Assembly: GCA_019429255.1 (NCBI GenBank)
Contig: JAHYIY010000014.1
Span: 1-62,348 of the forward strand
From: Desulfuromonadales bacterium
GTDB lineage: Bacteria > Desulfobacterota > Desulfuromonadia > Desulfuromonadales > Geopsychrobacteraceae
DNA: 62,348 nt
Reading direction: 5' to 3'
Both the position numbers and the translations under genes were made by a program. Positions 39,437 through 47,663 of the stretch are shown piece by piece. Under the pieces are notes generated by a model. It worked only from the letters and a program-made list of their open reading frames with translations. It was not told the origin of the DNA and ran no database searches. Position 1 is the stretch's first letter; every line of letters begins with the position of its first letter.

Positions 39437-39469
39437 CAGGCGAGTTCCCGGTCAGATGGAGCTCGCCTG
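39437..39469 (+). terminator. Shared hairpin between ppdK and the facing regulator gene
   Basis: The stem CAGGCGAG (39437-39444) pairs with CTCGCCTG (39462-39469) and is followed on the plus strand by TTGTTGTTT. The stop codon of the opposing GGDEF/EAL gene lies within the loop, so the same palindrome probably ends ppdK and overlaps the end of the facing gene. Confidence 0.6.
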
Positions 39470-41608
39470 TTGTTGTTTGACCGGCTGGACATCCCCAATG
39501 GTGTTTATGTGCGCCAGAATATAGTCAGTGGCCTGGCCCATTGCCAGTGGGCGACTGTAGTAATATCCCTGGCCAACCGCGCCACCATGTTTTAACAGAT
39601 ACTCGTGTTGCTGCCGGGTTTCTATTCCTTCGGCAACAAAGCGTAGCTGCAGCCCCTCTGCCATCTTGATCATTGCTGGAATAATGGTATCGGTCGGATT
39701 CTCTGCGGAAATTTTCTGGGTAAAGGACTTGTCCAGTTTGAGGGTATGAAGCGGTAAGCGGTCAAGATAGCAGAGGGACGAATACCCGGTGCCGAAATCA
39801 TCAACCGCAATTTTAACTCCGGCCTCGGCCAGCTCAACGATGTTGGCAACTGTTGTTTTAAGATCCTGAACCAGGACATTCTCTGTCAGCTCCAGTTCGA
39901 TATCCTGTGGTCTGAGGCGATGGTAATGGATCTGATCCAGCACTTTTGCGGCAAAGTTGTCCATCTGCAGTTGGACCGCAGAAACATTGATCGACACCTG
40001 CACAAAGAGGCCTTTGCGGTTCCACTCGTTGATATTCCGGCAGGCGATGTCCATGACGCGCGCACCGATATCAAGAATCAGCGAGGTTTCTTCGGCTGTC
40101 TCGATAAACTGGTTAGGCAACATGATCTCGCCCGAAGGCAGCTGGATCCTTGCCAGGGCTTCGAGGCTGCTGACCCTCATGGTGTTGAGGTGGAAGAGGG
40201 GTTGGTAGTAGACGATCAGTTGGTCGTTTTTCAGCGCCTGTCGGATCAGGTTTTCAGTAAAGACTTTCTGACTGTTTTTGTTCTCCAGTGACCAATTGTA
40301 GAAGCCATAGGAGTTGATGGAGCGGTTTTTCAGGTTGCATAACGCCGTGTCGACATTTTTCATCAGGTCTTCACAGCTGTTGCCATGCTCGGGATAGGTT
40401 GCAATCCCGATACTGACGCTGATATGGATTTCGTGGCCATTGTCGCGTATCGGCATGGCGGTTTCAGCAACGATACGCTCGGCTCTACGGAGTGCCTCGT
40501 TGTGGGCATTGACGGTGGGCAGTAGTAAGGCGAATTCATCGCCACCGATGCGGGCGAGGGTATCAACGGGGGTGCAGCAGCGTCTCAGACGGTCAGCAAA
40601 GCGGCGCAGCGTCTTGTCGCCGATCGTCTGGCTGTACGTGTCATTGATGAGTTTGAAGCGGTTGATATCGATCAGTATCAATGCGAAGGTTTCATTCGTG
40701 CCCTGGGCGCGCGTGATCATCTGACTTAGCCGCTCATGAAGCAGATTGCGATTGGGCAGACCGGTCAACAGATCGTGATTGTGCTGAAAACGGATGAGTT
40801 CTTCTGAACGTTTTTTCTCGGTAATGTCACGGGCCACCCCATAGGTGCCGATAAAATGACGTCCGGCTTTTTTCGTCCGCCCGAGACGGTAACCGCCGGC
40901 CAGCTTGCGTTCGATATTCAGGGTGCGGATCTCGGTGTAGACGATGTTGGTCTTTTCTTTTCCCTGAAGTCTTAACTCCACTTTTTCGTCGAATCTCAAG
41001 GTCGAGTCAGCCTTGAAGTAGCGGTTCGCCAGATCCAGATCCTCATGATAAACAACCGTACTGTAGTGCCTGCCCAGCAGTTCCTTTCTGGTGAAACCTA
41101 AACGATCAATGCTGTTTTTATTCACGAAGTTAAAATTGCCATGTTGATCGAGCATGTAGACAAGGTCAGGTGAATTGTGGACGATGAACTTGTGCAGTGC
41201 TTCCGATTCCTGCAGGGTCTCGATCATCGCTTTGTTGTCACGTTCAAGCTGGATTTTTTCACAGACGTTGTTGACGGAAAAAAGAAGTTCTTCGGGAGTG
41301 TAGGGTTTGCGGACGAAGTCTTTTGCTCCGGCGTTGAAGACATGAACGGCTTTTCTTATTTCAGATTCACCGCTGACGACAATAACATTGGTCTGCGGAT
41401 GGTATCTGTTGATGTGCTCCAAAACGGCGAAGCCGTCAACCTGCGGCATGTTCAGATCAAGTAGCGCGATATCGTACTGCCGGCGTGACAACTCTGAAAA
41501 CGCCTCGCTGCCGGAAGTCACAATCTGTGAGTTGCGCCCATCCAGCTTGAGGATGCTCTGCAGACTCTGCGCTACCTTGATTTCGTCGTCAATAATCAGA
41601 ATTAACAT
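39452..41608 (-). CDS. Response regulator with REC-PAS-GGDEF-EAL domains
   Basis: This 718-residue cytosolic protein has a REC domain at residues 1-120 (acidic pocket D7-D8, phospho-acceptor D51 in LLDLNMPQ, Lys in VRKPYTPEE), PAS at about 135-260 (LVYMLDQHGNFNFVNKN), GGDEF at about 270-440 with an intact GGDEF motif at 355-359, and EAL at about 455-705 with intact EAL at 483-485 and DDFGTGYSS. The position for the inhibitory RxxD site reads TPVD, so product inhibition at that site is probably lost. It may make or break c-di-GMP under phosphorylation control. It lies 63 bases after a sensor kinase gene on the same strand, its likely partner. Confidence 0.93.
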   Translation of the reverse strand: MLILIIDDEIKVAQSLQSILKLDGRNSQIVTSGSEAFSELSRRQYDIALLDLNMPQVDGFAVLEHINRYHPQTNVIVVSGESEIRKAVHVFNAGAKDFVRKPYTPEELLFSVNNVCEKIQLERDNKAMIETLQESEALHKFIVHNSPDLVYMLDQHGNFNFVNKNSIDRLGFTRKELLGRHYSTVVYHEDLDLANRYFKADSTLRFDEKVELRLQGKEKTNIVYTEIRTLNIERKLAGGYRLGRTKKAGRHFIGTYGVARDITEKKRSEELIRFQHNHDLLTGLPNRNLLHERLSQMITRAQGTNETFALILIDINRFKLINDTYSQTIGDKTLRRFADRLRRCCTPVDTLARIGGDEFALLLPTVNAHNEALRRAERIVAETAMPIRDNGHEIHISVSIGIATYPEHGNSCEDLMKNVDTALCNLKNRSINSYGFYNWSLENKNSQKVFTENLIRQALKNDQLIVYYQPLFHLNTMRVSSLEALARIQLPSGEIMLPNQFIETAEETSLILDIGARVMDIACRNINEWNRKGLFVQVSINVSAVQLQMDNFAAKVLDQIHYHRLRPQDIELELTENVLVQDLKTTVANIVELAEAGVKIAVDDFGTGYSSLCYLDRLPLHTLKLDKSFTQKISAENPTDTIIPAMIKMAEGLQLRFVAEGIETRQQHEYLLKHGGAVGQGYYYSRPLAMGQATDYILAHINTIGDVQPVKQQQASSI

Positions 41609-41671
41609 ATGCCATCATTCTCTCCCCCCAAGTATCAGCATGTCGTCATTAGTAGATGGATGTGCAGTGTA

Positions 41672-43759
41672 TCATGCGATCTCACGTGGCAGAAGTATTT
41701 TGAACTCGGTGCCGGTTGCCGGACTTGAAAAACACGAGATGCTGCCGCCCATTTCCTTTACCAGTGTATTGACAACGACCAGTCCCAGACCCGAGTGTCC
41801 CTCCTTGGTACTGACAACAGGAGTGAACAGGTTCTGTAAAATGGTCGGGGTAATGCCGGGGCCATTATCCTTGACCGTGATCTCAACCAAACGCTGTTGA
41901 TCCTGAAAGATATTATCCCGGGTGAAAACCTGAATGGTTCCACCGAACTCAAGAACTTCCGCGGCGTTTTTAAGCAGGTTGATCAACACCTGTTTGAGCT
42001 TGTCGGCAGAACAGCGAACCGGAGGCAATGTCCTGTCAAGCTGCAGAACCGACTGGATGTGTCCCGACGTGTACAGTGAGTTTTTCAGGATGCGATCAAG
42101 CTCGGATATCAGTTCATTAATATTGGTAATATCCTGGCTGCTTATAACGCCTGAGGTATTCTCCCTTGCGTGCAGCAGGATGCGACCAATCCGCTCAATT
42201 TCTTCGGAAATGGTGCGCAACTCCTCCTGGGCCGCATCCTCCTGGTGAAGCTTTTTGCCAAGAACATAAAGATAGTTGTTGATAATTGACAAGGGGTTGC
42301 TGATTTCATGCACCAGTTGTCTGAATCGGTTTGCTCCCATGCCAAGAGAATTATCCAGGGTTTTGTTGAGAGCAGCGTGGCGCCGGGCGACCTCCTCGCA
42401 AAACAAAGATAACAGGGCCTTGTCGGTTGCCGCCAGGGGTGATTTTTCACGGCCCAGCCCCAGGGCTATCACGCCGATTTTTGTATTCTGGTCAATCAGG
42501 GGGATCAGGGTGGCTGTTGTGCTGTCAAGCAGGCGGAGTAATTGCCGATCGGCGATAGTGGAACCGTCTGTGGTCAGGGTTTCTTCCCTGCCGGAGTTGA
42601 GGGCGGCAATAATCTGACTTTTGTTGTCAGATTCTTCCCAGACCAGATCCTCTAACTGATGCAAGCCAAGATCATTGATCGGAATGACGCAATTTTTTTT
42701 CTCATCGTAACGCAGCAGCAGCAGTTGCTGCAAAGGAAAGACCGAGCAGAAGCTGATTCTAACCTGCTTGGCAAAAGTTATCATATCCTTGCTGAGGCCA
42801 GGTGCAGCAGCCCGGCTCAGAGCGACCCGGCGAACTGCCTCGCGCAGTTGCGGGGCCGATTTTTTATCCTCGGACAGCAGACCTGATTCCTGCTGTTGGT
42901 TGATCAGAGAGGCGGCATCCGGAATACTTAGGGCGGTCAGCATGGCGATACTTTTGTCCAGCGCTTCATGAAGGCAGGTAAGGGCTGTTTCGGAGGTGAG
43001 CCCGAGAAGCTCCGTCGCTCTAGCCAGCGCTGTGGGGTTGTCGTCAGGTTTGCGGCTCCCGGTAAAGCGGGCAGCAACGGCGAGAATTTTTATCAGGGTC
43101 GGAGCACTGCGTAACTCATCAGTAGGAGCGCGTTGAAATTGGATGGCATCGGCAATAAAGGAATCGAGTTTCCAGCTCTGCGCCAGCAGTGCTCCGAGCT
43201 CACAATGATCGATTTGTAGAAGTGCTCTTTCCTGCTCACAGAAACTGTAGGGGGTCTCGTAATAACTGTCCAGCAACTGGAGATAATTGTCACAATCGTT
43301 CATCATCAGGATCAGCATGCCGGACTGGTGGAGCAGGCCGGCAAAAAACGCTTCTCCGGGTTTGTGATAGTTAAGCAGGCGGGCCAGCCGTTCGCACAGA
43401 TTGGCACAACATATGGAGCGCACCCAGATCTGGCGTAACTGGTGATTAAAGGCACTGCTGAACTGGTAAAAAAACTGCTCAATCGCAGAGGTGGTAACAA
43501 TGGTTTTGAGGTTGTGCATACCCAGCACGATCAAAAAACGGCGCAGATCACTGACATCGTTCCATTGTCGAAAAGCCGGAGTGTTGGCAATGTGCATCAC
43601 CCTCGACGTCAGCCCGGTATCTTTGCCGATCATCTCGGCGAACTTGTCAAAACCCGCATCTTCCTGATGACAAAGGTTGAGCAGTTCCACCAACAGATGA
43701 GGGACCGTGGGGAGGTTGGAGATGTTATAGCTTTTTTTGTCGCTGCAAGTGATATTCAT
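41672..43759 (-). CDS. HDOD-GAF-like sensor histidine kinase
   Basis: This 695-residue protein has an N-terminal HDOD domain (about residues 15-215, LPTVPHLLVELLNLCHQED and LTSRVMHIANTPAF), a middle region resembling a GAF domain (about 310-460) and a HisKA/HATPase core. The phospho-accepting His is H484 in VHEISNPLSIINN, and the ATP site has LLKNAAEV and DNGPGI. No membrane segment is seen, so it is cytosolic. The ATG at 43759 is chosen for its AGAGAAG site. A GTG at 43801 would add 14 residues. The downstream gene encodes a REC-GGDEF-EAL regulator. Confidence 0.9.
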   Translation of the reverse strand: MNITCSDKKSYNISNLPTVPHLLVELLNLCHQEDAGFDKFAEMIGKDTGLTSRVMHIANTPAFRQWNDVSDLRRFLIVLGMHNLKTIVTTSAIEQFFYQFSSAFNHQLRQIWVRSICCANLCERLARLLNYHKPGEAFFAGLLHQSGMLILMMNDCDNYLQLLDSYYETPYSFCEQERALLQIDHCELGALLAQSWKLDSFIADAIQFQRAPTDELRSAPTLIKILAVAARFTGSRKPDDNPTALARATELLGLTSETALTCLHEALDKSIAMLTALSIPDAASLINQQQESGLLSEDKKSAPQLREAVRRVALSRAAAPGLSKDMITFAKQVRISFCSVFPLQQLLLLRYDEKKNCVIPINDLGLHQLEDLVWEESDNKSQIIAALNSGREETLTTDGSTIADRQLLRLLDSTTATLIPLIDQNTKIGVIALGLGREKSPLAATDKALLSLFCEEVARRHAALNKTLDNSLGMGANRFRQLVHEISNPLSIINNYLYVLGKKLHQEDAAQEELRTISEEIERIGRILLHARENTSGVISSQDITNINELISELDRILKNSLYTSGHIQSVLQLDRTLPPVRCSADKLKQVLINLLKNAAEVLEFGGTIQVFTRDNIFQDQQRLVEITVKDNGPGITPTILQNLFTPVVSTKEGHSGLGLVVVNTLVKEMGGSISCFSSPATGTEFKILLPREIA

Positions 43760-43894
43760 TGCTTCTCTGATGTTCAGTAGATTCGACAGTTCTGCTACCA
43801 CATGCCGGCAGTTGGGCTGGTGGGTAGCCGACTACAACTAATAGATATATCTAATTAACTAAAACAAGGGAAAAAGGCAAGTATTTTAATAAAT

Positions 43895-47359: not shown

Positions 47360-47663
47360 TCAGGGGCGTTAGGTTGTTGCCGGGCTGAGATTGTTTCTGC
47401 CGTTATTTTTGCGCAGGGCCTTTGGCTCCTGTGGCAAGGGTGTTTGTCGCCATGGACGGCGACAAAAAGCGGTCATGGATGACCCAACGGGAAAAAATCG
47501 CGTCCCTTGACATAGGATCCGAAGATCCGGTGCTGAACAGTTACCAAAAATCAACCGTCCATCCCGCTGATATGCCACGATGGACGGCCTCAAATTTATA
47601 TCAACCAGTACCCTGTAACTCAAGAAATGTCGCAAGATGCGATAGATTATGGGTTACAGGGTG
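47360..47663. repeat. Intergenic stretch with three inverted repeats
   Basis: This 304-base gap separates two converging genes and shows no coding frame of merit. It holds three separate palindromes: TTTGTCGCC/GGCGACAAA (47443-47451, 47458-47466), CCGTCCATC/GATGGACGG (47555-47563, 47579-47587) and ACCCTGTAAC/GTTACAGGGT (47610-47619, 47653-47662). The last encloses a small TCGCA-AGA-TGCGA hairpin and abuts the ackA stop. Some probably serve as terminators, although none has a clean T tract. Confidence 0.6.

Follow-up and report, generated by a model that had tools for sequence, protein, structure and literature searches.

The locus studied here raises the question of whether a histidine kinase fronted by an HDOD domain and the GGDEF-EAL response regulator encoded beside it work as one signalling pair and, if so, whether this pair makes or breaks c-di-GMP. 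Both genes lie in a stretch of 62,348 nucleotides from a Desulfuromonadales bacterium, analysed as a whole and hereafter called the window. They are very probably a signalling pair in which an HDOD-fronted kinase controls an enzyme making or breaking c-di-GMP, a pair that occurs in many environmental bacteria. The genes, their domains, the catalytic residues and the conserved linkage are directly established, and the positions, strand and 63-base spacing given for the two genes in the initial annotation were exact (Table 1). The start of the kinase was set at the ATG aligned with the starts in relatives; an in-frame GTG at 43801 would extend the protein to 709 residues. The spacing between the two genes in relatives includes a 4-base overlap (−4) in 9 of 39 pairs. 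A scan for sigma-70 promoters and for terminators gave 7 and 7 sites, respectively, about as many as in shuffled sequences (5.4 and 7.4), so that no operon signal is claimed. The whole-protein structure models had low pTM values (0.52 and 0.42), and the arrangement of the domains in them was therefore left unused.

Table 1. Features of the kinase/regulator pair in the window, and related loci where the kinase is followed by other genes.
Feature	Position	Strand	Details
HDOD-GAF-HisKA-HATPase sensor histidine kinase	41672..43759	minus	695 aa, ATG start
HDOD domain	43124..43714	minus	Residues 16-212; Pfam PF08668, E 1.5e-45, 155.6 bits (cut-off 22.9)
GAF-like region	42380..42784	minus	About residues 326-460; Pfam below cut-off, relatives, secondary structure of model
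HisKA helices	42158..42334	minus	Predicted phospho-acceptor His484, codon 42308-42310
HATPase_c domain	41681..42007	minus	Residues 585-693; N, G1 and G2 boxes; Pfam E 7.5e-22
Intergenic gap	41609..41671	minus	63 bases, from kinase stop to regulator start
REC-PAS-GGDEF-EAL response regulator	39452..41608	minus	718 aa
REC domain	41279..41602	minus	Predicted phospho-acceptor Asp51, codon 41456-41458
PAS domain	40823..41188	minus	About residues 141-262; Pfam
GGDEF domain	40319..40780	minus	GGDEF motif 355-359; Pfam
EAL domain	39548..40249	minus	E483, N541, E576, D603, D604, K624, E660 and Q680 all present
Kinase without regulator, then MshEN-like and MinD-like genes	L096 8119-10162		
Kinase without regulator, then MshEN-like and MinD-like genes	L104 2178-4248		
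Kinase without regulator, then MshEN-like and MinD-like genes	L126 1242-3177		

The HDOD, GAF-like and HisKA/HATPase composition first proposed for the kinase was recovered, HDOD and HATPase_c as strong Pfam matches and HisKA (E = 3e-4, 21.2 bits, cut-off 26.9) and GAF (E = 0.009, 16.9 bits, cut-off 22.4) as matches below the cut-off. Among eight hand-picked relatives, HisKA passed its cut-off in five and GAF in three. These three relatives, together with the mixed helix/strand pattern of the region in the predicted model, weakly suggest a GAF domain; a fold search with the whole kinase, which barely probed the parts outside the core, returned mostly kinase cores and HDOD structures and no GAF structure. 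By its H-box and its N, G1 and G2 residues, the protein is predicted to be a two-component sensor histidine kinase: His484, Asn598, Asp631, Gly633, Gly657 and Gly659 were found in all 41 rows with letters at these positions (42 rows, one of them partial). Kinase cores of the AtoS, ZraS and NtrB type were among the best-matching families and structures, but the match was confined to the core, and the NCBIfam equivalog of AtoS scored 123.5 bits against a cut-off of 646. In the wider alignment of 108 rows, His484 is absent from two tandem copies, L100b and L139. These are second HDOD kinases lacking the phospho-acceptor histidine in two Rhodoferax records (L100, 10464-12467; L139, 4537-6651), and they are possibly pseudokinases. 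A c-di-GMP site of the CckA type on the ATPase domain was considered and rejected, since an Asn and a Ser align with the contacts of CckA, Tyr (Y514) and Trp (W523), in the alignment with 5idm.

The HDOD assignment agrees with the fold search, in which residues 10-265 of the kinase model matched MmoQ (PDB 3p3q) with a Z score of 23.2 and an rmsd of 3.2 over 250 aligned residues. MmoQ (3p3q, 3ljx) thus shares the HDOD fold, with Z of 23 over about 250 residues, but its PDB entry is a response regulator and not a kinase. The HDOD tryptophan, W112, is present in 108 of 108 alignment rows. The position of the HD dyad reads H144-Q145 in the window kinase, and because of this dyad a role of its HDOD as an HD-GYP or other metal-dependent HD phosphohydrolase was rejected. 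At position 145, aspartate was found in none of the 42 rows of the first set and in 37 of the 108 rows of the wider set.

All four domains of the regulator (REC, PAS, GGDEF and EAL) scored above their Pfam cut-offs. The receiver has the acidic pocket, phospho-Asp and lysine in place (D7, D8, D51, S79, K101), and D51 is present in all 118 regulators. The phospho-Asp and both the GGDEF and EAL motifs had been described as retained, and the Arg of the inhibition site as missing, and both statements hold: residues 346-349 (40562-40573) read TPVD, that is, TxxD in place of RxxD. This site is RxxD in 110 of the 118 regulators, carries Thr in 4, all of the window's genus, and Gln in the other 4. The window regulator thus lacks the RxxD by which a product-inhibited diguanylate cyclase would be recognised. 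Its GGDEF domain keeps the core residues D314, K319, N322, D331, D357, E358, F359 and K427 and departs from the consensus at S326, Q327 and I431. The roles of the EAL residues were taken from their RocR equivalents, mapped by motif, as given in the accessible text of PMC7911125. Position 484, the Ala of the EAL motif, is Ala in 74, Gly in 8 and Leu in 2 of 84 regulators and was left unscored in the residue counts over the 118, which also exclude L050, L056 and L118.

Whether the two genes belong together was addressed through their linkage in other genomes. Loci were found by similarity to the kinase and not to the regulator, and the matches fetched were chosen by score and length. A first search covered 98 genomes, where many matches comprised the kinase core only, and 40 regions of full or near full length were taken from it (34 window-like and 6 more distant matches). 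In 39 of the 40, kinase and regulator are adjacent and share a strand; the other region, L041, stops at a contig end. A wider scan of contigs yielded at least 79 loci, where 74 HDOD kinases were complete or nearly so; 67 were left once 7 duplicates were removed. Duplicates linked genomes from the window's family with Desulfuromusa records, which are labelled Geopsychrobacteraceae. In a class-wide search, 67 of 194 genomes, a few of them partly, matched the family alignment at E ≤ 1e-60; the matches listed from the wider contig scan include records of beta- and gammaproteobacteria and of Desulfobacterota. The fusion of HDOD to a histidine kinase had been called uncommon; with so many matches within the class, and others beyond it, this part of the initial interpretation finds no support, while the part in which a kinase/regulator pair acts on c-di-GMP is supported by the linkage. 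From the class-wide search we took 40 further regions, namely, all 25 full-length ones outside the window's order and 15 others; 37 of them were new and 3 duplicates were removed. Together with 108 kinases (the window included, the partial kinase of L032 excluded), they form a pool of 145 HDOD kinases.

The next gene encodes a REC-PAS-GGDEF-EAL regulator on the same strand in 121 of these 145, a count that takes in two regulators with a broken frame (L050, L056) and four cut by a contig end (L058, L098, L118, L159). The remaining kinases are followed by a REC-kinase-REC hybrid (15), a receiver cut by the contig end (1), no partner (7) or a contig end that hides the neighbour (1). One of the seven without a partner, L123, is located at the end of its contig; two others, L100b and L139, are second kinases in tandem within clusters that do bear a regulator. 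Outside the window's order, 25 regions came from other families of the class; the regulator is next to the kinase in 22 of them, the exceptions being L170 (receiver cut by the contig end), L153 (hybrid) and L172 (none). Unlinked genes in related genomes had been named as the result that would speak against the pair, and the linkage found here did not bear this out. In L050 and L056, the broken regulator frames stand next to an intact kinase frame.

The other neighbouring genes vary between clades. No shared function was found among 20 hand-picked neighbours, where 4 were without a match at E 1e-5 and the rest were mixed, apart from MinD-like ATPases. The window's own genome has four places that match the regulator across GGDEF and EAL (C18, C41, C50 and C31), which are too few to produce such linkage, and a chance neighbourhood was therefore rejected. 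It is also very unlikely that the two are neighbours without being partners, with the regulator receiving its phosphate from a different kinase or from acetyl phosphate and the HDOD kinase acting on some other target. Such an arrangement would agree with the receiver-bearing hybrid kinase beside 15 of the 145 HDOD kinases and with the 7 that have no receiver gene beside them, figures that imply that the kinase does not go with a c-di-GMP enzyme in all cases. It is opposed by the 121 next-gene associations, kept across differing neighbourhoods, and by the history of the partners. The kinase tree, built from 108 rows, accounts for the switch between regulator and hybrid partners with a single change if rows lacking a partner are set aside, and with 3 to 4 changes for each label if they are counted; the hybrid of L153 was found after the tree was made and is absent from it. 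The three hybrids scanned with Pfam have two REC domains, PAS, HisKA and HATPase, suggesting that regulators and hybrids may have arisen by a swap of the output portion that follows a shared receiver. For 84 pairs, path distances on the kinase and regulator trees were correlated (r = 0.79), while none of 500 permutations exceeded 0.106. Each of five groups examined needed as many changes on one tree as on the other, a concordance that shared descent alone would also yield.

We consider a cognate two-component system serving mainly c-di-GMP breakdown to be the probable reading of the pair. The kinase would take its input through the HDOD domain and the GAF-like domain, autophosphorylate at His484 and, we infer, act as phosphodonor for Asp51 of the regulator encoded beside it. 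Once phosphorylated, and with a second input from the PAS domain, the regulator would presumably have its c-di-GMP activity switched one way or the other. In this lineage, the output would be mainly hydrolysis of c-di-GMP by the intact EAL domain, making the protein a net phosphodiesterase, and the GGDEF domain, without its usual product-inhibition site, would be evolving towards GTP binding or weak activity.

The direction of this output was approached by comparing the 24 window-type regulators with the 94 others. None of the 24 shows a change at the ten EAL positions inspected. On the GGDEF side, His327 is retained in 3 of the 24 versus 93 of the 94, the Arg of the I-site in 16 versus 94, a basic residue at position 431 in 13 versus 93, and the second Gly of the GGDEF motif in 14 versus 90. 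The ratio of GGDEF to EAL divergence was 1.09 in the window-type group versus 0.82-0.91 in four others, from pairs that are overlapping and non-independent. An intact EAL domain beside a GGDEF side that is eroded and diverging slightly faster favours net c-di-GMP breakdown by the window regulator. The "synthesis or breakdown" of the initial annotation is thereby narrowed: the window pair leans to breakdown, and a second pair in the same genome leans the opposite way.

Since the core GGDEF residues are kept, the window regulator may still be a working cyclase and, lacking the I-site, could even make c-di-GMP unchecked. An unlikely alternative is accordingly a cognate pair whose regulator is a net diguanylate cyclase, freed of product inhibition by the lost Arg and with a minor or regulated EAL domain. 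The retained GGDEF motif and core GTP and metal positions would suit it, as would the Thr found at the I-site in 4 of 4 members of the genus and the DgcR cyclase, whose RxxD mutant is described as largely insensitive to feedback in the available text of PMC8041772. It has to face the EAL positions, intact throughout the window-type group, the wear of His327, basic residue 431 and second Gly, found mainly in that same group, and the presence in this genome of a better candidate for synthesis, the second pair, where GGDEF and RxxD are kept and EAL is damaged.

Net breakdown also has a parallel in DVU0408 of Desulfovibrio vulgaris, which is, like the window regulator, a response regulator with GGDEF and EAL domains (gene of 2148 bp). 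According to the accessible part of PMC4114195, its phosphodiesterase was active, diguanylate cyclase activity was undetected, and more product was formed with GTP; unlike here, its GGDEF has Tyr for Phe, and that part mentions no HDOD kinase with DVU0408. ArrS/ArrR of Aeromonas veronii is another two-component system where phosphorylation sets the c-di-GMP phosphodiesterase of the regulator, by inhibition in that case, but HDOD is not mentioned in the abstract of PMC11841396.

The second HDOD kinase/regulator pair lies on contig C41, and its kinase and regulator are 27% and 36% identical, respectively, to those of the window pair. Second-pair regulators were sought at 40 loci, two of which (L202 and L211) had theirs outside the fetched piece. 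GGDEF and RxxD are kept in 38 of the 38 regulators of this clade, whereas K624, E660 or D604 of the EAL domain is altered in 16 of the 38, all from two genera: the window's genus (g1; 4 of 4, K624M and E660K) and g4 (12 of 12, E660A or S). We take E660, in the AEGIET motif, to correspond to E352 of RocR, a metal ligand according to the accessible text of PMC7911125. The second-pair regulators of the window's genus (C41 L067, 9520-11694; L182, L187 and L205) also carry GE for DD in the acidic pocket of the receiver, 4 of 135 regulators, and keep Asp51 and Lys101. A cultured relative, Desulfuromusa kysingii DSM 7343, has a pair of each type (window-type L042, second-type L151).

Loss at these EAL positions was found in 16 of 27 second-pair regulators from genomes with both pairs versus 0 of 11 where the window-type pair was not found, although this absence is uncertain in incomplete genomes (e.g., G034, 76% complete) and G010 was scored as having both pairs on the basis of a kinase that is divided between contigs. 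In further genera that possess both pairs, the EAL positions are retained. As the 16 losses are confined to two genera, they possibly represent two events, and no correlation is claimed. The ratio of GGDEF to EAL divergence was 0.87 in both the EAL-lost 16 and the EAL-kept set, and the losses were thus not accompanied by faster overall divergence of EAL relative to GGDEF. One genome thus shows opposite wear, on the GGDEF side in the window pair and on the EAL side in the second pair, which suggests that the paralogous pairs have specialised in opposite directions, through few independent events. If their outputs are indeed opposite, they would offer a natural case in which the copies of a two-component system took on opposite tasks after duplication, one making and the other breaking the same messenger. 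A bolder version, which we regard as quite improbable, has the window pair break and the C41 pair make c-di-GMP in a push-pull arrangement, with HDOD domains that sense a di-nucleotide in cyclic or linear form, each kinase thereby gauging the messenger under its control.

This leads to the signal of the HDOD domain. A reading compatible with the cognate pair, and which we put forward tentatively as rather unlikely, is that HDOD senses c-di-GMP or pGpG and closes a feedback loop on the turnover of the messenger. MshEN binds c-di-GMP, and in L096, L104 and L126 (Table 1) the regulator after the kinase is replaced by MshEN-like and MinD-like proteins, but MshEN passed the Pfam cut-off of 23.1 bits only in L126 (25.4 bits, versus 17.0 in L096 and 15.8 in L104); the L126 kinase is cut by the contig end and its HDOD was not seen. 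Among 119 loci, 11 have a MinD-like ATPase gene no more than two genes away from the kinase; all of these belong to the 79 loci listed by the contig scan, and they include L096, L104 and L126. These MinD-like and MshEN-like neighbours are hints compatible with a c-di-GMP circuit. The invariant W112 would also fit a sensing role, while the CckA-type site looks absent. As to HDOD proteins themselves, SadB, a YbaK-HDOD protein, binds c-di-GMP with a Kd of 0.23 µM, and HDOD resembles the HD-GYP phosphodiesterases, but the binding domain of SadB is not mapped in the accessible part of PMC6543031, the source of all three statements.

In seven gammaproteobacterial loci (L079, L081, L105, L106, L109, L122 and L123), the HDOD kinase is flanked by a divergently oriented gene for a MinD/ParA-like ATPase. 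In L135 (10024-12444), a fusion of MinD-like ATPase, HDOD and a GAF-like region is encoded convergently with the REC-PAS-kinase partner of an HDOD kinase.

HDOD domains have been tied to motility and c-di-GMP in GsmR, DVU0330, I2285 and SadB (PMC9040570, PMC4114195, PMC6543031, as far as their accessible text goes). The conserved HDOD tryptophan is important in GsmR and also in I2285, where its effect is clearest in combination with Tyr194 (available text of PMC9040570). In GsmR and DVU0330, HDOD is the output of a receiver, and in SadB it is joined to YbaK, without a kinase core being mentioned in the accessible portions of these papers, whereas the HDOD domain described here makes up the N-terminal portion of a histidine kinase. 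The component domains and the general scheme are thus already known; the literature searched on HDOD and on GGDEF-EAL regulators, partly accessible and sparse in subscription journals, contained no account of this pair. In the available text of PMC6543031 and PMC4395418, the role of HDOD is presented as not established. In the present family, HDOD stands before a kinase that looks intact and has a conserved neighbour. Kinase activity could therefore serve as a readout in the search for the HDOD signal, one that is not available with stand-alone HDOD proteins.

Elsewhere in the window, positions 47360-47663 (about 300 bases) correspond to a place where sister genomes (L033, L034 and L035) have an extra GGDEF gene between the rhomboid and ackA genes, a gene that seems to have been lost from the window.
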